Source of the DNA: an uncultured Eubacterium sp.
Lineage (GTDB): Bacteria; Bacillota; Clostridia; Peptostreptococcales; Anaerovoracaceae
Assembly: GCA_946614405.1 (NCBI GenBank)
Contig: CAMOGZ010000033.1
Location: 1-10,579 of the forward strand
Direction: 5' to 3'
DNA length: 10,579 bases
How positions within the stretch are numbered: position 1 is the first letter of the stretch; each line of letters opens with the position of its first letter. The position numbers were made by a program, and so were the translations under genes. The notes beneath the pieces were generated by a model. The model had not been told where the DNA came from. It ran no database searches and worked only from the letters and a program-made list of their open reading frames with translations. This document shows positions 141 through 7,400 of the stretch, piece by piece.

Positions 141-192
141 CGTATGGTTATTAGGACTAATCAAATTACTATTTAGAAAGGAAGGTTTCAAT

Positions 193-1515
193 ATGAGTTC
201 AAGTGCAAAGCATTTGCATAGCATTGACGCCGGTCACTATAAGCACACGGCCGGTTGTGAAACCGAAGTCATGCCGATTCCTGATGTTGTGAAGATCTCA
301 ATGTCACAGCACATCGGCGCACCTTGCAAGCCATTGGTTAAGAAGGGCGACGAAGTAAAGGTAGGGCAGGTCATCGGAGACACCGATGCCTTTGTAAGTG
401 CACCGATTCATTCCAGCGTTTCCGGTAAGGTCACCGGAATCGAGACCCAGCGTAATGCAATGGGTGGCATGGATACTTTGGTCGTCATCGAGGCGGACAA
501 AGAACAGACGCTGGCAGAGGACATCAAACCACCTGTGATCACCGACATGGAAAGCTTTGTTAAGGCAACCAGAGCCAGTGGTCTCGTGGGACTGGGAGGA
601 GCATCCTTCCCGACCCATATTAAGTTCAATCCTAAGAACAAGGATGAAGTTAAGACATTCATCGTCAACGGAGCAGAGTGCGAGCCGTTCATCACATCCG
701 ACCACAGAACCATGCTGGAGGATGCCCAGAACGTGATCGACGGAGCCCTGGAGATCATGAAATGGCTGGAGACCGATATGGGCTACATCGCCATCGAGCA
801 GAACAAGCCGGATGCCATTGCTAACTTTGACAGACTGATCGCAGAGCAGGGGATCAAGAATCTGAAGACGTTCAAGCTTCTGGACAAGTATCCGAAGGGA
901 GCAGAGCGTGTTCTGATCTACGAGATCACCGGTAAAGAGTGTCCTGCAGGCGTACTGCCGGCAGAACTGGGATGCATCGTATCCAACGTTACATCCGTGG
1001 CCTTCTTTGGACAGTATCTGAAGGACGGCATTCCACTCATCAAGAAGAGAATGACCGTAGACGGAGACGCTGTCAAGGAGCCGAAGAACATCATCGCACC
1101 GCTGGGAACCCAGATCCACGATATCATCGAGTTCTGCGGCGGCTACAAGACACCGGAAGGACCTGAGAAGATCCTGATGGGCGGACCGATGATGGGAAGA
1201 GCTATCTTCTCCGATCAGATGCCGATCGTGAAGAACAATAATGCCATTCTGGCTTTCTCTAAGAATCAGGCTTATATTCCGGAAGAGACCGCATGCATCA
1301 ACTGCGGACGCTGCCACAAGGCATGCCCGTTCAACCTGCTGCCCACCGGTCTTGCAGAAGCATATGAGCGCAGAGACGCACAGAGACTGTCCGACCTTCA
1401 GGTCATGCAGTGCATGGAGTGCGGAAGCTGCTCCTTCGTATGCCCGGCAAGAAGACCGCTGGCCTTCATGAATAAGCTTGGAAAAGGAATCGTAAAGGAG
1501 GCTGGGATCAAATAA
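193..1515 (+). CDS. rnfC: RnfC, ferredoxin:NAD+ oxidoreductase (Rnf) subunit C
   Basis: Peripheral cytoplasmic subunit of the Rnf complex that carries the NADH/FMN site and passes electrons between NAD and the Fe-S chain. The product is 440 aa, the usual clostridial length. Visible features are GLVGLGGASFP at 130-140 (glycine-rich nucleotide/flavin motif), NGAECEP at 159-165, and two [4Fe-4S] motifs near the C-terminus: C368/C371/C374/C378 (CINCGRCHKACP) and C407/C410/C413/C417 (CMECGSCSFVCP). The start at 193 is chosen because AAAGGAAGG lies 7 bases upstream and the protein then begins MSSSAKHLHS; an in-frame ATG at 25 would add 56 residues with no family match. First gene of rnfCDGEAB; its TAA overlaps the rnfD ATG (TAATG). 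Identification is very secure. Confidence 0.97.
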   Translation: MSSSAKHLHSIDAGHYKHTAGCETEVMPIPDVVKISMSQHIGAPCKPLVKKGDEVKVGQVIGDTDAFVSAPIHSSVSGKVTGIETQRNAMGGMDTLVVIEADKEQTLAEDIKPPVITDMESFVKATRASGLVGLGGASFPTHIKFNPKNKDEVKTFIVNGAECEPFITSDHRTMLEDAQNVIDGALEIMKWLETDMGYIAIEQNKPDAIANFDRLIAEQGIKNLKTFKLLDKYPKGAERVLIYEITGKECPAGVLPAELGCIVSNVTSVAFFGQYLKDGIPLIKKRMTVDGDAVKEPKNIIAPLGTQIHDIIEFCGGYKTPEGPEKILMGGPMMGRAIFSDQMPIVKNNNAILAFSKNQAYIPEETACINCGRCHKACPFNLLPTGLAEAYERRDAQRLSDLQVMQCMECGSCSFVCPARRPLAFMNKLGKGIVKEAGIK

Positions 1516-2519
1516 TGGATAAGAAGTATTTTGACAATTTGACCGTATCCTCATCACCGCATCTGGTCACACCGCTGGACACCCAGAAGACCATGCTGAT
1601 GGTGTTGATCGCCATGGTACCGGCTTTCGTGATGAGTATCGTGGTCTTCGGCGTACGGCCGATCATTCTCACTGCAGTCTGCGCAGTGTCCGCTGCATTC
1701 TTTGAGTGGGCATTCAACGCACTGCTGAAGAGACCTCAGACAGTCAGCGATCTTTCTGCCTGCGTAACAGGTGTGATCCTGGCTATGAACCTGCCTTCCA
1801 ACTTCCCGTATTGGATGGCAATCATCGGAACATTCACCGCCATCGTCATCGTTAAGGGACTGTTCGGCGGACTGGGCAAGAACATTGCAAACCCGGCTAT
1901 CGTCGGACGTATCGTTCTGCTGCTGTCCTTCACCACCCAGATGACCACATGGCCGGTCACCAACATGGACGACACCGACGCCACCACCGGAGCAACTGCA
2001 CTGGGCATTCTGGCAGAGGTATCCAAGGGCAAGATGGAAATCGGCGAGCTGCCTACCAACTACGAGCTGTTCCTCGGCTTCTGCGGAGGATGCCTGGGTG
2101 AGGTAAGTGCCATTGCCATCCTGATCGGCGGACTCTTCCTGATCTGGAAGAAGATCATCTCACCGATCATCCCGTGCGCGTTCATTGCTACAGTATTCGT
2201 ATTCGCGCTGATCTACTATTCCGTCAAGGGCGGCGACTTCAACGCATTCCAGATGGCTATCTTCCACGTCTGCGCAGGCGGCGTGATGTTCGGAGCATTC
2301 TTCTGTGCCACCGACTATGTCACATCACCGATCATGGATCGTGGTAAACTCATCTTCGGTATCGGCTGCGGACTGGTCACCATGATCATCCGTATCTGGG
2401 GTTCCTATCCGGAAGGCGTATCCTTCGCCATTCTGTTTATGAACATGCTGACCCCGCTCATCGACAATGCTGTGATCAAGAGCTACTACGGAGGAGGTGC
2501 AAAGAAAAATGAAAAGTAA
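1515..2519 (+). CDS. rnfD: RnfD, Rnf complex membrane subunit D (flavinylated)
   Basis: Integral membrane subunit of the NqrB/RnfD family, 334 aa, thought to take part in electron transfer linked to ion translocation. Long hydrophobic stretches run through the whole chain (for example residues 27-46, 49-71 and 90-115). The conserved segment GLFGGLGKNIANPAIVGR follows. The covalent FMN motif is TGATALG at 158-164, with Thr161 as the expected phosphoester-linked residue, by analogy with the SGAT threonine in NqrB and RnfD. Attachment would need an ApbE flavin transferase, which is not in this window. The start overlaps the rnfC stop by one base; the ribosome binding site AAGGAGG lies at 1495-1501, rather far (13 bases), so translational coupling is likely. 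The 3' end overlaps rnfG by 11 bases. Confidence 0.96.
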   Translation: MDKKYFDNLTVSSSPHLVTPLDTQKTMLMVLIAMVPAFVMSIVVFGVRPIILTAVCAVSAAFFEWAFNALLKRPQTVSDLSACVTGVILAMNLPSNFPYWMAIIGTFTAIVIVKGLFGGLGKNIANPAIVGRIVLLLSFTTQMTTWPVTNMDDTDATTGATALGILAEVSKGKMEIGELPTNYELFLGFCGGCLGEVSAIAILIGGLFLIWKKIISPIIPCAFIATVFVFALIYYSVKGGDFNAFQMAIFHVCAGGVMFGAFFCATDYVTSPIMDRGKLIFGIGCGLVTMIIRIWGSYPEGVSFAILFMNMLTPLIDNAVIKSYYGGGAKKNEK

Positions 2520-3078
2520 TACTTATAAAGAATACATTGCACCGATCGTTGTCCTGGTATGCATCTGCCTGGTCGCTTCCGCACTGCTGGGCGTCGTATA
2601 CGGCATTTCCAAGCCGATCATCGACGTGAACTCCCAGAAAGCGGCTGACGAGGCAAGAGCAACCGTACTGGCGGACGCTGATGCGTTCACACCGTACGAG
2701 GGCGAGCTCGTTGAGAGCGCACCGGGAAGCGTCTATGCAACCGAAGCATACATCGCAAACAATAAGGCCGGCGTTGTCGTCACCGTGCAGTCCAAGTCCT
2801 TCGGCGGCGCGCTGACCGAGATGGTTGGAATCAACGCCAATGGTGAGATCACCGGCGTCGTTGTCACCGATCACGCTGACACCCCGGGCCTTGGTACCAA
2901 GGACTTCGAGCCGAAGTACCTGGACCAGTACAAAGGCCTGACTGAAATGAAATCCACCAGCGTCAAGGAAGACGGACAGATCCAGTTCATCAGTGGAGCT
3001 TCCGTTTCCGGTTCCGCCGTACACTATGGCGTCTACTGCGCGCTGGATCAGTTCGCTAAGATGGGAGGTGTACAGTAA
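2509..3078 (+). CDS. rnfG: RnfG, Rnf complex subunit G (FMN-binding domain)
   Basis: NqrC/RnfG-family subunit of 189 aa. It has one N-terminal membrane helix (about residues 9-33, YIAPIVVLVCICLVASALLG) and an extracytoplasmic FMN-binding domain with the typical segment HADTPGLGTKDFEPKYLDQY. The covalent flavin motif near the C-terminus reads ISGASVSGSAV (161-171). The residue expected to carry FMN, threonine in the usual SGAT, is Ser165 here, and the upstream Asp of the ApbE recognition pattern is Gln159. The start ATG at 2509 is preceded by GGAGGAGG; a GTG at 2497 is in frame but is part of that ribosome binding site. The gene overlaps the end of rnfD and is joined to rnfE by a TAATG overlap. 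The family call is secure; whether the site is flavinylated is open. Confidence 0.94.
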   Translation: MKSNTYKEYIAPIVVLVCICLVASALLGVVYGISKPIIDVNSQKAADEARATVLADADAFTPYEGELVESAPGSVYATEAYIANNKAGVVVTVQSKSFGGALTEMVGINANGEITGVVVTDHADTPGLGTKDFEPKYLDQYKGLTEMKSTSVKEDGQIQFISGASVSGSAVHYGVYCALDQFAKMGGVQ

Positions 3079-3773
3079 TGAATAAAAAGAGTAAACTGGC
3101 CATCCTGACCAACGGTTTCATCAAGGAGAACCCGGTACTGGTACTGGTTCTGGGAACCTGCCCGACACTGGCGGTAACCACATCCGTCTTCAACGGCGTC
3201 GGAATGGGAATCTCTGCGACTGCGGTACTGATCTGTTCCAACATCGTTATTTCGATCCTGAAGAACATCATTCCGGATAAAGTCAGAATTCCGTGTTACA
3301 TCGTCGTTATTGCAAGCTTTGTAACCATCGTACAGCTGCTGCTGCAGGCCTTTGTTCCGGCACTGTACTCATCCCTGGGCTTGTTCATCCCACTGATCGT
3401 AGTTAACTGCATCATCCTGGGAAGAGCAGAAGCCTTCGCAAACAAGAACTCCGTGATCGACTCCGCACTGGACGGAATCGGCATGGGAATCGGATTTACC
3501 GTAGCTCTGTTCTTCATGGGAGCCATGAGAGAACTGCTGGGCGCTGGCACCCTGTTTGCCGGAACCCCGATCGAGATGCACATCCTGGACAACTTCATCC
3601 CGGGCATGGGTATCTTCAACCTGGCACCGGGCGGATTCTTCGCCTATGCCGTAATCATGGCAGCCGTTGCGTTCCTGACAAGAGACAAGAGCAAGATCAA
3701 GAAAGACTTTGGAACCGGCGCTGTAGTACAGCCGCCTGCTCCGGAGAAGACTGAGGAAGGAGGAGCAGCATGA
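3078..3773 (+). CDS. rnfE: RnfE, Rnf complex integral membrane subunit E
   Basis: Membrane subunit of the NqrD/RnfE family, 231 aa with about six transmembrane helices. Together with RnfA it forms the membrane core; paired cysteines from the two proteins hold a [2Fe-2S] cluster in the membrane in solved Rnf/Nqr structures. The candidate ligands are Cys28 (LGTCPTLAV) and Cys111 (VVNCIILGRAEAFA), both in the expected places. The segment GMGIGFTVALFFMGAMRELLGAGT is typical of the family. A short polar C-terminal tail (from about 200) is rich in Lys, Pro and Glu and probably lies in the cytoplasm. GGGAGG lies 9 bases before the start, which overlaps the rnfG stop; the 3' end overlaps rnfA as ATGA. 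Confidence 0.96.
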   Translation: MNKKSKLAILTNGFIKENPVLVLVLGTCPTLAVTTSVFNGVGMGISATAVLICSNIVISILKNIIPDKVRIPCYIVVIASFVTIVQLLLQAFVPALYSSLGLFIPLIVVNCIILGRAEAFANKNSVIDSALDGIGMGIGFTVALFFMGAMRELLGAGTLFAGTPIEMHILDNFIPGMGIFNLAPGGFFAYAVIMAAVAFLTRDKSKIKKDFGTGAVVQPPAPEKTEEGGAA

Positions 3774-4348
3774 TCACCAATATGTTTGTCATCGTACTGA
3801 GCATGGTATTGGTAAACAACTACCCGCTGGCTCAGTTCCTCGGAATCTGTCCGTTCCTGGGCGTATCCAAAGACCTGGATTCTGCTAAGGGTATGGGAAT
3901 TGCCGTAACCTTCGTTATGGTACTGGCTACTGCAGCCACATGGCCCATCATGCAGGTCCTGAACAAGTTTGAGATCGCATACCTGCAGACCATCGTATTC
4001 ATCCTGGTCATCGCATCTCTGGTACAGCTGGTTGAGATGTTCATGAAGAAGAGCATGCCCGCACTGTATAAGTCCCTGGGTATCTTCCTTCCGCTGATCA
4101 CCACCAACTGCGCAGTACTGGGTGTATGTATCACAAACATCGACAACAACTATAACTACATTGAGGCACTGGTCAACTCCTTCGGAGCTGGTATCGGATT
4201 CCTGGTCGCTATGATCATCTTTGCCGGTATCCGCAGCAAGCTGGTAGACCAGAGCAAGATGCCGAAGTCCTTCCAGGGCGTTCCTATCGCACTGATCACA
4301 GCTGCGATCCTGTCCCTGAGCTTCATGGGCTTCCAGGGTCTGGTATAA
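3770..4348 (+). CDS. rnfA: RnfA, Rnf complex integral membrane subunit A
   Basis: Membrane subunit of the NqrE/RnfA family, 192 aa, homologous to RnfE and inserted in opposite topology in known structures. About six hydrophobic helices fill the chain. The candidate [2Fe-2S] ligands are Cys27 (LGICPFLGV) and Cys114 (TTNCAVLGVC), mirroring Cys28 and Cys111 of RnfE. The segment NYNYIEALVNSFGAGIGFLVAM is family-typical. The ATG overlaps the rnfE TGA (ATGA) and is preceded by AAGGAGGAG about 6 bases away, so the two membrane partners are translationally coupled. Nineteen bases separate it from rnfB. Confidence 0.96.
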   Translation: MITNMFVIVLSMVLVNNYPLAQFLGICPFLGVSKDLDSAKGMGIAVTFVMVLATAATWPIMQVLNKFEIAYLQTIVFILVIASLVQLVEMFMKKSMPALYKSLGIFLPLITTNCAVLGVCITNIDNNYNYIEALVNSFGAGIGFLVAMIIFAGIRSKLVDQSKMPKSFQGVPIALITAAILSLSFMGFQGLV

Positions 4349-4367
4349 GGAAGGAGGCGAGCTAGTT

Positions 4368-5510
4368 ATGATGAATTTGATTCCGATTGCTGTAGCAGTT
4401 GTAGTTGCAGTCGGCATAGTAGCAGCTTGTATCCTGAGCTATGCTTCCAAGGTATTCTTTGTGCCTGTAGATGAACTGTTCACCAAGATCCGTCCGGAAC
4501 TGCCGGGCGCCAACTGCGGCGGATGCGGCTATGCAGGATGTGACGACTACGCCAACGCACTGGTGGAGGACCACAGCCTGAGCACAGCCAAGTGCCCTGT
4601 AGGAGGCCCGGATCTGGCAGCCAAACTGGCTGAGATCATGGGAGTCTCTGCAGAAGTAGGTGAGAAGAACGTCGCCGTGGTTCAGTGTAATGGAACCAGG
4701 GATGCCGTCAAGTCCCTCCTGCAGTACAAAGACATCGCGACCTGTAAGGCCGCAAAGAGCCTGTTCGGCGGAATGAACGCATGCCCCTACGGATGTATGG
4801 GACTGGGCGACTGCGAAGCTGCCTGCGATTTCGACGCCATCCAGGTCGTAAATGGTGTGGCTACCGTTAACCGTGACGCCTGCGTATCCTGCGGCGCCTG
4901 CGCTACGGCATGCCCGAACCACCTGATCCGTATTTCCCCGGCCAAGAACCTGGTCATCGTTCAGTGCAGCAACACTGATAAGGGCGGCGTAGCACGCAAG
5001 GCTTGCTCCAACGCCTGCATCGGCTGCATGAAGTGCACCAAGGTCTGCAAATTCGAGGCCATCACTGTTGAGAACAATCTGGCATCCATCGATCCGACTA
5101 AGTGCAAGAACTGCGGACTGTGCCAGAAGGAGTGCCCGACCGGCGCTATCATCAACCTGAGACCGAAGAAGAAGGCCGCTCCGAAGAAGAGCCCGGAAGA
5201 AATCGAAGCTCTGAAGAAGGCTGCTGCTGAGAAGAAGGCAGCTGCTGCCAAGGCTAAGGCTGAGGAAGAAGCTCCTGCAAAGGAAGAAGCTCCGAAGGCT
5301 GAGGCTCCTGCAAAGGAAGAGGCTCCGAAGGCTGAGGCTCCTGCAAAGGAAGAGGCTCCGAAGGCTGAGGCTCCCGCTAAGGAAGAGGCCGTCGAGGAAG
5401 CTCCCACCGCAGCTGAGACTGAGGCAAAAGCCGAAGAGCTGAAGAAGGGTGCAGAAGAGATCAAGGAAAAGATCGACAAGATCGCAGCAGAAGAACCTGC
5501 TGAGAAATAA
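4368..5510 (+). CDS. rnfB: RnfB, Rnf complex polyferredoxin subunit B with long Ala/Glu/Lys/Pro tail
   Basis: Entry subunit that takes electrons from reduced ferredoxin. The order is: an N-terminal membrane helix (about 5-25); a [4Fe-4S] motif C50/C53/C58/C76 (CGGCGYAGC then AKCPVGG); the RnfB-typical segment C139/C143/C149/C153 (CPYGCMGLGDCEAAC); and three ferredoxin-type motifs at C172/C175/C178/C182, C217/C220/C223/C227 and C246/C249/C252/C256. After about residue 264 comes a tail of some 116 residues with no cysteines, rich in Ala, Glu, Lys and Pro, containing an 11-residue repeat (302-341) and a final charged helix-like segment. At 380 aa it is longer than many RnfB proteins because of this tail. 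The start at 4368 has AAGGAGG 10 bases upstream; a second ATG follows directly. Last gene of the operon, 31 bases before a terminator. Confidence 0.96.
   Translation: MMNLIPIAVAVVVAVGIVAACILSYASKVFFVPVDELFTKIRPELPGANCGGCGYAGCDDYANALVEDHSLSTAKCPVGGPDLAAKLAEIMGVSAEVGEKNVAVVQCNGTRDAVKSLLQYKDIATCKAAKSLFGGMNACPYGCMGLGDCEAACDFDAIQVVNGVATVNRDACVSCGACATACPNHLIRISPAKNLVIVQCSNTDKGGVARKACSNACIGCMKCTKVCKFEAITVENNLASIDPTKCKNCGLCQKECPTGAIINLRPKKKAAPKKSPEEIEALKKAAAEKKAAAAKAKAEEEAPAKEEAPKAEAPAKEEAPKAEAPAKEEAPKAEAPAKEEAVEEAPTAAETEAKAEELKKGAEEIKEKIDKIAAEEPAEK
5271..5390 (+). repeat. 33-bp tandem repeat within rnfB (about 3.6 copies)
   Basis: Three consecutive 33-base copies begin at 5271, 5304 and 5337, followed by a 21-base partial copy at 5370-5390. 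Each full copy encodes APAKEEAPKAE. Copies 2 and 3 are identical, and copy 1 differs from them at one silent third position (GAAGAAGCT against GAAGAGGCT). The repeat stays in frame, so changes in copy number would lengthen or shorten the RnfB tail without a frameshift. Confidence 0.95.
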
Positions 5511-5540
5511 GAATGATTTCTAAATAGTAACCTTACATAA

Positions 5541-5577
5541 GGACTGTTGCAGATCATTGCAGCAGTCCTTTCCTTTT
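5541..5577 (+). terminator. Rho-independent terminator after the rnf operon
   Basis: An 11-bp stem pairs GGACTGTTGCA (5541-5551) with TGCAGCAGTCC (5558-5568), with one G-U pair and a 6-base loop. It is followed by TTTCCTTTT. It lies 31 bases after the rnfB stop, so it ends the rnfCDGEAB transcript. The T run is interrupted by CC, so some read-through is possible. Confidence 0.85.
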
Positions 5578-5630
5578 GTCAGCGTTTCCTCAAAGGAAAA
5601 GAATGTACGAAAAAGTCAATAAATACGACC

Positions 5631-5659: not shown

Positions 5660-5700
5660 AAATGTAGATGAAGTCTACTATAATGACCGGAGGTTGCAGT

Positions 5701-6597
5701 ATGGCATTCGAACTGAAACAAGAAGTATATGATGCCCTGATCGAGACCTGTGTGGAGACGCTGAAGAAGCGCTCGGTCTCCCGGGTGGATGAGATGATCA
5801 ATAAACTGATGGACGTGGACGGCGTGATCATTCATTGCCCTTACCATCATTTTATCGTGCCGGCCTGTCTTTTGACCATGGCGGCCATGGAGAAATACAA
5901 GAAAGAAGAGACTTTGCGGGAGTGGCTGGAGCTGGCAGAAGCCCGGGCCAAGGATGTCCCCGGCGGCGTCTGCGGCAACATGGGAAACTGCGGATCCTCC
6001 GTGGGAGCCGGCATCTTCCTCTCTGTCTATACCAACGCATCCCCGCTGTCGGTGGAAAACTGGAAGTGGGCCAACGAGCTCACGGGCCACTGCCTGATCC
6101 GGATCTCCTCCTACGGCGGTCCCCGCTGCTGCAAGCGGACCTGCTACCTGGCTTTGATGGAGGCAGTGCCCTTTATCAATGAGAAGCTGAGGCTGAACCT
6201 GCGTTTCAACGAGTCCGTGATCTGCAAGTATTCCGACCAGAACGCGGAATGCCTCAAGGAGAACTGCCCCTTCTACGAGCGGAATCCCAGAAACTGCGAT
6301 CCGGGACTTGCCATCGTAGTCCCCGGGGAGAAGCTTCCTAAGAAGGACCCGAAGAAGGATCCCAACTGCGCCTGCCAGACCGATCCTGTAGAGATCGAAG
6401 GCAGCGACTGCTACATCTCCTGGCTGGCGGAGACCGGAGAGAAAGTCAGGCGGGATCAGGTGATCTGCGAGGCCGAGGTGGACAAGCGGACCATCGAATT
6501 TACCGCTGAGACCGACGGCATCCTGACCCACTGCATCGAGAACGGAGACCGTTTCCGGCCCGGCACGGTGCTGGGTTACATCCGCGCCCCGAAATAG
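5701..6597 (+). CDS. DUF5714-type Cys-rich domain fused to a C-terminal lipoyl-type domain; function unknown
   Basis: Soluble protein of 298 aa with no signal peptide or membrane helix. Residues 1 to about 205 look like DUF5714, a family of unknown function with conserved Cys/His: HCPYHHFIVPA (45-55), GGVCGNMGNCGSSVGAG (88-104), GGPRCCKRTCYLAL (139-152), then C175, C184, C189 and C199, which suggest metal or redox chemistry. After a charged linker (KKDPKKDPNC), residues about 225-298 match a lipoyl/biotinyl domain: ISWLAETGEKVRRDQVICEA, the hairpin motif EVDKRT with Lys262 where E2 lipoyl domains carry lipoate (ETDKA), then TDGILTHCIENGDRFRPGTVLGYI. The ATG at 5701 has GGAGG 7 bases upstream; an earlier in-frame ATG at 5668 has none. 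It stands alone between a terminator on each side. The fusion is clear; lipoylation is inferred. No reaction can be assigned. Confidence 0.85.
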   Translation: MAFELKQEVYDALIETCVETLKKRSVSRVDEMINKLMDVDGVIIHCPYHHFIVPACLLTMAAMEKYKKEETLREWLELAEARAKDVPGGVCGNMGNCGSSVGAGIFLSVYTNASPLSVENWKWANELTGHCLIRISSYGGPRCCKRTCYLALMEAVPFINEKLRLNLRFNESVICKYSDQNAECLKENCPFYERNPRNCDPGLAIVVPGEKLPKKDPKKDPNCACQTDPVEIEGSDCYISWLAETGEKVRRDQVICEAEVDKRTIEFTAETDGILTHCIENGDRFRPGTVLGYIRAPK

Positions 6598-6608
6598 CAC
6601 AGAAACTG

Positions 6609-6640
6609 CGGCTGGTGTTTGCAACACCAGCCGTTTTGTT
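6609..6640 (+). terminator. Rho-independent terminator after the DUF5714-lipoyl gene
   Basis: A perfect 11-bp stem, CGGCTGGTGTT (6609-6619) with AACACCAGCCG (6623-6633), has a 3-base loop and is followed by TTTTGTT. It lies 11 bases after the stop codon. Its 3' part overlaps a candidate promoter for the next gene. Confidence 0.88.
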
Positions 6641-6671: not shown

Positions 6672-7400
6672 ATGGATGCAAGATTACAGAAGATCATAGA
6701 TGAAAGCAATAACATCGTATTCTTTGGCGGCGCCGGCGTCTCCACCGAGAGCGGCATTCCGGACTTCCGCTCTGAGAGCGGCCTGTACCACGCCCAGGAG
6801 GTCTACGGCTACAGCCCGGAGACCATGCTGTCCCACAGCTTCTATGTGCGGCAGACCAAGATGTTTTTCAAGTACTATAAGGAGAACCTCATCCACCAGG
6901 AGGCCCAGCCGAACAAAGCCCACCTGGCCCTGGCTGCTCTGGAGCAGGCGGGTAAGCTGAAGGCGGTGGTCACCCAGAACATCGACGGGCTGCACCAGAA
7001 GGCCGGAAGCAAGCAGGTCTACGAGCTTCACGGATCCGTGCTGCGCAACTACTGCCAGCGCTGCGGCAAGTTCTACGACCTGGACTACATCATGGATGAG
7101 AGCAATTGTGAGGAGGGGATCCCCAAGTGCAGCTGCGGCGGCACCATCAAGCCCGACGTGGTACTCTACGAGGAATCCCTGGACGACGCCTGCATCGAAG
7201 GCGCCGTGGAAGCCATCTCCAGAGCGGATACACTGATCATTGGCGGAACCTCGCTGGTGGTATATCCTGCGGCAGGACTGATCCATTACTTCCACGGGAA
7301 GAACCTGGTCCTCATCAACAAAGACAAGACGCAGTATGACAGCAAAGCCGACCTGGTGATCAACGACTCCATCGGCAAGGTAATGGAGATGACAGAATGA
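6672..7400 (+). CDS. Sirtuin (SIR2 family), NAD+-dependent protein deacylase
   Basis: Removes acyl groups from protein lysines using NAD+, yielding nicotinamide and O-acyl-ADP-ribose; cytoplasmic. The 242-residue length is typical of small bacterial sirtuins. All core motifs are present: GGAGVSTESGIPDFR (19-33) of the Rossmann NAD site, TQNIDGLHQKAGS with Asn103 and Asp105, catalytic His120 (ELHGS), a structural zinc site C128/C131/C153/C155 (CQRC and CSC), KPDVVLYEE and GGTSLVVYPA. Such enzymes are often called CobB or SrtN; the substrate range cannot be read from sequence. The ATG at 6672 has AAAGGAGG 8 bases upstream; an in-frame ATG at 6615 lies inside the terminator hairpin. Its stop overlaps the surE start (ATGA). 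The preceding gene encodes a lipoyl-type domain, a possible acylated substrate, but this is only inference. Confidence 0.95.
   Translation: MDARLQKIIDESNNIVFFGGAGVSTESGIPDFRSESGLYHAQEVYGYSPETMLSHSFYVRQTKMFFKYYKENLIHQEAQPNKAHLALAALEQAGKLKAVVTQNIDGLHQKAGSKQVYELHGSVLRNYCQRCGKFYDLDYIMDESNCEEGIPKCSCGGTIKPDVVLYEESLDDACIEGAVEAISRADTLIIGGTSLVVYPAAGLIHYFHGKNLVLINKDKTQYDSKADLVINDSIGKVMEMTE

Follow-up and report, generated by a model that had tools for sequence, protein, structure and literature searches.

The window analysed here, a stretch of 10,579 nucleotides from an uncultured Eubacterium sp., carries on its forward strand a gene (5701..6597, 298 aa, stop codon TAG) in which a DUF5714 domain is fused to a lipoyl domain, and the locus raises the question of what chemistry such a combination would serve. 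In the open literature searched, no paper discussing DUF5714 was found, and neither this name nor PF18978 appears among the matches listed. The original prediction held that a dithiolane tethered to Lys262 could act as a swinging arm in a cysteine- or metal-based redox or transfer reaction, and that the gene is a self-contained unit.

The fusion gene and its two domains

A Shine-Dalgarno-like GGAGG (5689..5693, + strand) favours ATG 5701 as the start over the upstream ATG 5668. The gene had been credited with a promoter and a terminator of its own. Intrinsic terminator-like hairpins do occur on both sides (5539..5570, between rnfB and the fusion gene, and 6608..6634, 3' of it, both + strand), but the promoter-like site (5576..5604, + strand) is a weak sigma-70-like match, 9/12. 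In the window the fusion gene looks monocistronic. An rnfCDGEAB-like operon (Rnf, window 190-5510) lies upstream; scanning one genome per species gave 137 relatives, and among the best 80 loci kept (numbered with L below) adjacency of Rnf to DUF5714 is not conserved.

Both halves of the predicted DUF5714-lipoyl architecture scored over their cut-offs in profile searches. The DUF5714 domain (about residues 1-199, 5701..6297, + strand), all-helical in an AlphaFold2 model, matched PF18978 over residues 23-192 (E 2.2e-53, 180.8 bits vs a gathering cut-off of 26.2). The lipoyl domain (about residues 200-298, 6298..6594, + strand) matched PF00364 over residues 238-293 (E 1.8e-8, 34.5 bits vs 22.1), and the C-terminal region therefore did not fail as a lipoyl or biotinyl domain. 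The motifs HCPYHH (residues 45-50), CGNMGNCG (91-98), GGPRCCKR (139-146) and EVDKRT (259-264, with Lys262) were all confirmed in position.

Conservation was followed in a wider alignment of 102 rows, of which 91 were counted as DUF5714 rows and 54 as lipoyl rows (43 fused proteins and 11 of the 21 separate ones). Within HCPYHH (5833..5850, + strand), H49 is kept in 89/91 and H50 in 90/91 DUF5714 rows, and C91 and C97 of CGNMGNCG (5971..5994, + strand) are each kept in 90/91, the exception for H50, C91 and C97 being one fragment row that is gapped there. Every residue of GPRCCKR (residues 140-146, 6118..6138, + strand) and the cysteines of C175-x8-C184-x4-C189 (6223..6267, + strand) occur in 91/91 rows, and C175, C184 and C189 are possible ligands of an Fe-S cluster or of Zn. 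The invariant residues of the protein look like those of a metal or Fe-S site combined with a modified lysine, from which we infer the metal; most likely DUF5714 holds a metal or Fe-S centre, a candidate metal-thiolate site.

For the C-terminal part, the best PDB sequence matches were lipoyl domains of 2-oxoacid dehydrogenase E2/E3BP (1ghj, E 1e-6), and the NCBIfam matches at E 0.01 were lipoyl domains of 2-oxoacid or acetoin dehydrogenases; biotin carriers were not among these sequence matches (NCBIfam at E 0.01; PDB, chance-level rows aside). That this is a true lipoyl domain is well supported by sequence. Most of the stretch first described as a charged linker falls inside the domain, which in the model starts at about residue 200 (strand 203-206), and where relatives have a separate lipoyl gene, it starts at roughly the corresponding position. 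An insertion of the domain bears a CxC motif, C223-A-C225 (6367..6375, + strand), which is present in all 29 lipoyl-bearing loci (from the best 80 of 137); C223, C225, W241, K262, G273 and G292 are each found in 54/54 lipoyl rows.

Lys262 (6484..6486, + strand), the predicted lipoylation site, was expected at the tip of a beta-hairpin, and AlphaFold2 places it in the turn that joins strands 254-260 and 263-268 (pLDDT 95.9). It is conserved in 61/61 rows reaching the lipoyl part, the window's own included (63 rows aligned, of 120 listed relatives, of 189 found; 61 reach the C-terminus). Among the 29 lipoyl-bearing loci (from the best 80 of 137), 27 have Lys at this site. The motif ExxK occurs in all 21 loci with separate genes and in the fused L007, L008, L009, L012 and L032, the exceptions being L006, with QVDK, L015, which is cut by a contig end, and L039, with Leu at the lysine site followed by Lys and a frameshifted DUF5714. 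The last (L039:2295-3190) is a second DUF5714-lipoyl copy, apparently decaying; its assembly (DBTX01) also holds the intact pair of L021.

Fused and split forms and their lipoate ligases

With profiles built from fused proteins, a CxC lipoyl domain was detected in 29/80 loci (best 80 of 137). The fusion recurs, in 8 loci (L006, L007, L008, L009, L012, L032, the contig-end cut L015 and the frameshifted L039), but the split form, in which a separate lipoyl gene of about 95-110 residues stands behind the DUF5714 gene, is commoner (21 loci). The majority of the split pairs overlap or lie no more than about 20 bases apart, in many of them a GGAGG falls in the final part of the DUF5714 gene, and about 170 bases separate the genes in L022 and L024. 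The idea of a self-contained unit found no support for the module as a whole: the fusion is the minority form (8 fused vs 21 split in 29 loci), and many relatives have rows of lpd-lplA-DUF5714-lipoyl genes or corrinoid genes around it. In a DUF5714 tree of 81 rows, which omits L039, the lipoyl-bearing rows fall into one 34-row group (99/98) together with 5 lipoyl-less rows, and fusion requires three changes.

In an even sample of the class, DUF5714 exceeded its cut-off in 34/391 genomes; it is also present in Chloroflexota, Actinomycetota, Myxococcota and one archaeon. A CxC-lipoyl profile at E 1e-8 had matches in 36/391 genomes, and the three strong ones (E < 1e-20) are each fused to or directly beside DUF5714; the other 33 are at 4e-13 or weaker and stop short of the CxC end of the profile. 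It is well supported by these sequence comparisons that DUF5714 and the CxC-bearing lipoyl domain are functional partners, encoded in fused or adjacent genes.

Four split pairs are separated by an in-frame TAG (L010:2536-2538, L011:1992-1994, L014:2991-2993, L023:8586-8588), so that pyrrolysine read-through could give a fused protein; the genomes concerned hold a TAG-bearing MTTB. Against read-through as a rule, the stop is TAA in L013 and is TAA and out of frame in L017.

The co-occurrence of lipoate ligase genes with the pair was borne out in the best 80 of 137 loci. With the 51 lipoyl-less DUF5714 loci as control for neighbour counts, LplA flanks 15/29 lipoyl-bearing vs 0/51 lipoyl-less loci (chance expectation 0.16 loci; Fisher p 1.2e-8) and an Lpd-like gene 13/29 vs 1/51 (p 2.3e-6), these p-values being indicative only because the loci are related, 7 of the 15 with LplA belonging to a single close group. 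Where at least 3 kb were available on both sides, the LplA counts are 10/18 vs 0/26. Clustering of neighbours took in the window and 32 loci, annotated with Pfam and NCBIfam. The L013 ligase matches TIGR00545 (319 bits vs a cut-off of 280) and has PF21948 and PF10437, the L017 ligase (L017:6986-8005, with the lipoyl gene at L017:8599-8886) has 5iby as its best match (E 9e-54), and the Lpd-like protein of E. timonensis has Lpd 2eq6 as its best PDB match (E 2e-41). A C-x4-C redox pair in GGxCxxxGCxPT is kept in 11/11 Lpd-like genes whose start is in view.

Gene order varies around the pair. The order lpd-lplA-DUF5714-lipoyl, with genes overlapping or nearly touching, was found in L013, L014, L017, L020 and L023 (Emergencia and relatives); L010 and L011 are of this type and begin inside lpd, and in L032 lpd and lplA precede the fused protein. 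The position of the ligase differs nonetheless between these related loci: before DUF5714, directly behind the lipoyl gene (L022, L024), behind CobW (L018, L019) or about 6 kb off (L021, L031). In an LplA tree of 35 selected rows (15 adjacent to the module and 20 from elsewhere or other contigs; L098 is omitted because it repeats the gene already taken from L027, a Sporomusa ovata locus, and the L024 and L101 rows have under half of the columns), the 15 module-adjacent rows fall into two groups, one of 9 rows (98/97) and one in which they make up 6 of 10 rows (89/99), the remaining 4 being non-adjacent. Of the 18 rows from elsewhere, 12, including the LplA of the window genome, form a third, weakly supported group (88/74); E. 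timonensis has one module-adjacent LplA and one in this general group. A lipoate-protein ligase and an Lpd-like flavoprotein accompanying the pair in many relatives are well supported at the level of sequence. None of the partner genes (LplA, Lpd, corrinoid-type) is present in the window, and a dedicated LplA is missing from the window genome, where the single LplA (L089:2495-3664, - strand) groups with general LplAs and lies beside a canonical Lpd.

Which proteins such ligases would serve was surveyed in 28 lipoyl-bearing genomes (numbered with G) and the genomes of 22 of the 51 lipoyl-less loci, several of them drafts. Genomes devoid of lipoate metabolism, which had been named as counter-evidence, did not turn up as such: LplA occurs in the window genome and in 26/28 relatives, being missing in G003 and G010. 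A clear GcvH (E < 1e-20) was found in 13/28 lipoyl-bearing genomes, leaving 15/28 without, and a clear E2 core (PF00198, E < 1e-50) in 6/28. Neither a clear GcvH nor a full E2 core is present in 14/28, each of which has exactly one LplA, in 12/14 on the same contig as the module and no more than 7 kb from it (exceptions G021 and G028). The 14 include Schaedlerella arabinosiphila DSM 106076, with the locus on a 6.3 Mb contig. This count disregards two kinds of match. In G013, G014, G017 and G019, GCV_H matches weakly (E 3e-4 to 7e-4) at places that also match PF00364 in frames of 139-176 aa, biotin-carrier-like in size; in G005, G009, G015 and G026, PF00198 matches in part, over 55-90 of its 232 positions (E 6e-8 to 1e-4), in frames of about 300 residues. 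The window genome has a separate GcvH, and PF00198 has no match in the fusion protein or in that genome.

Because of the enrichment of LplA and Lpd and the 14 genomes with a single LplA, 12 of them near the module, the C-terminal domain is very probably lipoylated and a client of the module's ligase, as judged from sequence. LipA exceeded its cut-off in only 2/29 genomes, the window genome counted, and lipoate is therefore probably mostly salvaged. None of the three outcomes named against a tethered dithiolane as swinging arm (failure as a lipoyl domain, a variable Lys262, absence of lipoate metabolism) occurred, and the predicted arm is well supported.

Corrinoid and other neighbours of the module

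An MtaA-like UroD lies near 8/29 lipoyl-bearing loci (0.67 expected), with 3 of the 8 matches short (83-206 aa; those of L018 and L030 run off the end of the locus and that of L021 is fragmentary) and the UroD-bearing L021 and L039 from one assembly. Other neighbours of these loci are a corrinoid protein (5/29, the one in L012 being MetH-like), a RACo-type activase (5/29), a CobW GTPase (10/29), NMT1-type importers (4/29) and, in a small number of loci, MTTB, a hydantoinase-like protein or DUF1638. The enrichment of UroD and corrinoid protein over lipoyl-less DUF5714 loci is modest (p ~0.02). UroD, corrinoid protein and activase occur together in L018, L024 and the lipoyl-less L029. The fetched flanks of L006, L009, L025, L028 and L033 hold no LplA, Lpd, UroD, corrinoid protein, activase or CobW, and those of the lpd-lplA rows L010, L011, L013, L014, L017, L020, L023 and L032 hold no UroD, corrinoid protein or activase.

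All five UroD proteins examined have a thioredoxin-like tail (L007:10306-11676, - strand; L016:5512-6960; L022:11028-12470; and, in lipoyl-less loci, L029:4235-5644 and L036:1697-3061), and these loci also have CobW. The tails match Thioredoxin_3 at E 5e-7 to 0.004, over the cut-off in 2/5, and CxxC spacing was seen; the L007 protein also matches thioredoxin 1fo5 (E 5.5e-6). It keeps both MtaA-type active-site cysteines and has Phe in place of the MtaA His next to CGN, which we take to be a zinc ligand.

L007 is the nearest relative by DUF5714 identity (82% in tree columns). There PadR-CobW-UroD stands opposite the fused gene, and next come a corrinoid protein and, at a distance of about 4 kb from the fusion, a TAG-interrupted MTTB gene. 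In the window genome, contig C26 carries UroD (464 aa), CobW, PadR and a hydantoinase-like gene, contig C74 has an activase and a corrinoid protein together with PylB, a partial PylC and a TAG-containing MTTB frame, and contig C54 has a second MTTB. The window organism probably uses pyrrolysine, as these genes suggest. On C74 (genome G000, L088:1-3150, - strand), PylB scores 450 bits, over its cut-off, the start of PylC is present and the MTTB frame has one in-frame TAG; MTTB frames with one TAG were also seen in several lipoyl-bearing relatives.

A different set of neighbours is found in L026, L031 and L035, which have a DVU_1556-like methyltransferase, an Lpd-like protein, DUF5714, the lipoyl protein and HGD-D proteins, with a BcrAD activase seen in L035 (cluster L035:1-10199). 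The L026 methyltransferase resembles DVU_1556 at 115 bits, below the cut-off of 155, and one L035 HGD-D protein is like the double-cubane model at 179 bits, below the cut-off of 350. The genomes of these three loci gave no MTTB and no UroD match. This cluster is another unexplained system, probably reductive in nature.

Possible roles of the lipoyl arm

On balance, the sequence evidence makes it fairly probable that a lipoyl domain partnered with DUF5714 would carry lipoate at Lys262, with redox control by Lpd, a metal in DUF5714 and a role in corrinoid-linked thiol chemistry. DUF5714 would be the catalytic partner domain of the swinging arm. Lys262 would be charged with lipoate by LplA, Lpd would set the dithiol/disulfide state of the arm with NAD(H), and the invariant His/Cys set of DUF5714 would bind a metal or Fe-S centre. 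More tentatively, the arm might shuttle between the metal-thiolate site of DUF5714 and corrinoid methyl-transfer partner proteins, and the lipoyl thiol might be a protein-bound counterpart of coenzyme M that accepts or donates a methyl or other one-carbon group. The reaction first suggested, redox or one-carbon transfer based on cysteines or a metal, agrees with the invariant Cys/His residues and with the corrinoid and Lpd neighbourhood, but it does so in outline only, with the chemistry putative.

As to what the arm would carry, a methyl or one-carbon cargo is slightly favoured, at somewhat under an even chance, because the thiol acceptor of bacterial MtaA-like clusters is still unsettled (PMC10418091). 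Electrons alone are nearly as likely because of Lpd, the CxC motif and the thioredoxin-like tails; sulfur or selenium would be an improbable cargo, and anything else a slightly less probable one. In its most explicit form, dihydrolipoamide would replace coenzyme M, so that a thiol activated by DUF5714 takes or gives the corrinoid methyl fed by MttB-type demethylases, with a private ligase and Lpd. We consider this explicit form rather unlikely, and the simple analogy with MtaA is weakened because the L007 UroD has Phe for the MtaA His. A pure electron relay, in which Lpd and NADH reduce the lipoyl disulfide and the arm then passes the electrons to the DUF5714 centre or to the thioredoxin tail of UroD, carrying nothing else and thereby maintaining or activating a low-potential methyltransferase or dehydratase-type enzyme, is somewhat unlikely, though a serious alternative. 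It agrees with the Lpd-like gene in 13/29 loci, the CxC of the lipoyl domain, the CxxC of the UroD tails and the two kinds of reductive activase nearby, RACo and, beside HGD-D in L035, BcrAD. A dedicated lipoyl protein would, however, seem over-elaborate where thioredoxin would suffice, and 16/29 loci have no Lpd-like gene in their flanks, including the corrinoid-type loci except L022 and L024.

The arm might instead bind sulfane sulfur, selenide or their methylated forms, as proposed for LbpA, a reading that we hold to be quite improbable. DUF5714 has a relative in MbdU, a double selenoprotein with a CU motif (E 1.7e-17), a DVU_1556-like methyltransferase and HGD-D proteins (one of them double-cubane-like) occur in L026, L031 and L035, and ligases adjoin the lipoyl gene as they do for LbpA (PMC6067878); the CC pair, however, is Cys and not Sec in the aligned rows. 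A 'dicubane cluster protein' is provisionally tied to selenium metabolism in PMC10418091, and in our reading it is of the same kind as the double-cubane-like protein of L035. Very improbable is an unmodified or biotinylated docking domain. Lipoyl and biotinyl domains alike fill the lists of similar folds, and the window genome is without a dedicated ligase. The motif, however, is ExxK and not the MKM of biotin domains, and the sequence matches are to lipoyl domains of 2-oxoacid and acetoin dehydrogenases, with no biotin carrier (NCBIfam at E 0.01; PDB, chance-level rows aside). The LplA counts (15/29 vs 0/51) also speak against it, as do the 14 genomes in which a single LplA occurs although neither a clear GcvH nor a full E2 core does. 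In SirTM/GcvH-L operons a sirtuin controls a lipoyl protein, and a Sir2 gene (6672-7400) begins with its ATG 74 bases behind the fusion gene. Control of this kind is hardly credible here, as Sir2 scores 350 bits (cut-off 221) with NF001752, a model of NAD-dependent deacylases, a terminator-like hairpin lies between the two genes and no Sir2 relative was found at E 1e-15 in the best 80 of 137 DUF5714 loci.

The favoured reading, a lipoyl arm serving DUF5714, describes a system apparently distinct from 2-oxoacid dehydrogenases, acetoin dehydrogenase and glycine cleavage. With 2-oxoacid dehydrogenase E2 the domain shares the fold (PF00364) and the local lysine motif, but the fusion protein has no acyltransferase core or other E2 domain. 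Glycine cleavage (GcvH/T/P/L) likewise has a lipoyl arm, an Lpd partner and a possible one-carbon theme; in contrast, the fusion protein has no GCV_H (PF01597) match at E 0.01, no aminomethyltransferase was among the annotated neighbours and 15/28 lipoyl-bearing genomes are without a clear GcvH. Five characterised multienzyme complexes depended on lipoate as of 2018, to which LbpA was added (PMC6067878), and the DUF5714-lipoyl system is absent from the lipoate-dependent systems listed there. LbpA of Hdr-like sulfur oxidation is comparable in being a lipoyl protein outside central metabolism with swinging-arm logic; it has LplA-like ligases encoded next to it, as do 15/29 lipoyl-bearing loci here but not the window. 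It differs in that the partner here is DUF5714 and the context corrinoid and Lpd; the LbpA system has single-domain LplA-like proteins and LbpA resembles GcvH (PMC6067878), whereas PF21948 and PF10437 occur together in the L013 ligase and the present domain is nearest to E2 lipoyl domains. No hdr-like genes were among the annotated neighbours.

Also comparable are the type 1 mlp clusters of anaerobes, mostly Firmicutes, with UroD-family MtaA homologues (Mlp2 and Mlp3 types), a corrinoid protein and an activase, for which methyl-sulfur or methyl-selenium metabolism was proposed and the final thiol acceptor is unsettled (Kountz and Balskus, PMC10418091). Some of the loci studied here have a similar set, an MtaA-like UroD with corrinoid protein and activase; they differ in that UroD may have a thioredoxin-like tail and that CobW, DUF5714, the lipoyl protein and LplA are added. 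A word search of PMC10418091 gave neither 'lipo' nor 'CobW', and among the papers listed from the open literature searched none is, by its title, on a lipoate-corrinoid methyltransferase system. The sequence comparisons point to a lipoate-dependent system not described before, with a private ligase in many lineages and an uncharacterised catalytic partner. A further lipoate client with its own ligase would broaden the known roles of the cofactor, give DUF5714 its first testable function and explain why anaerobes in which GcvH and E2 are not clearly present have lipoate ligases. Through its connection with MttB and corrinoid proteins, the module would be tied to methylamine and quaternary-amine metabolism and to the thiol-acceptor question of bacterial MtaA-like enzymes.

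MbdU (NF045648) shares the DUF5714 region with the fusion protein but is a selenoprotein model of 468 positions, to which the fusion protein scores 63.5 bits vs a cut-off of 600. MbdU is tabulated with a 'CU' motif, where the fusion protein has Cys143-Cys144, and the CU would align with this CC pair. Long DUF5714 frames of 585-704 aa also occur (L051:6705-8543, L060:2060-3814, L044:6393-8504); their N-terminal ~350-470 residues gave no Pfam match at E 0.001, and their last ~230 residues resemble MbdU.
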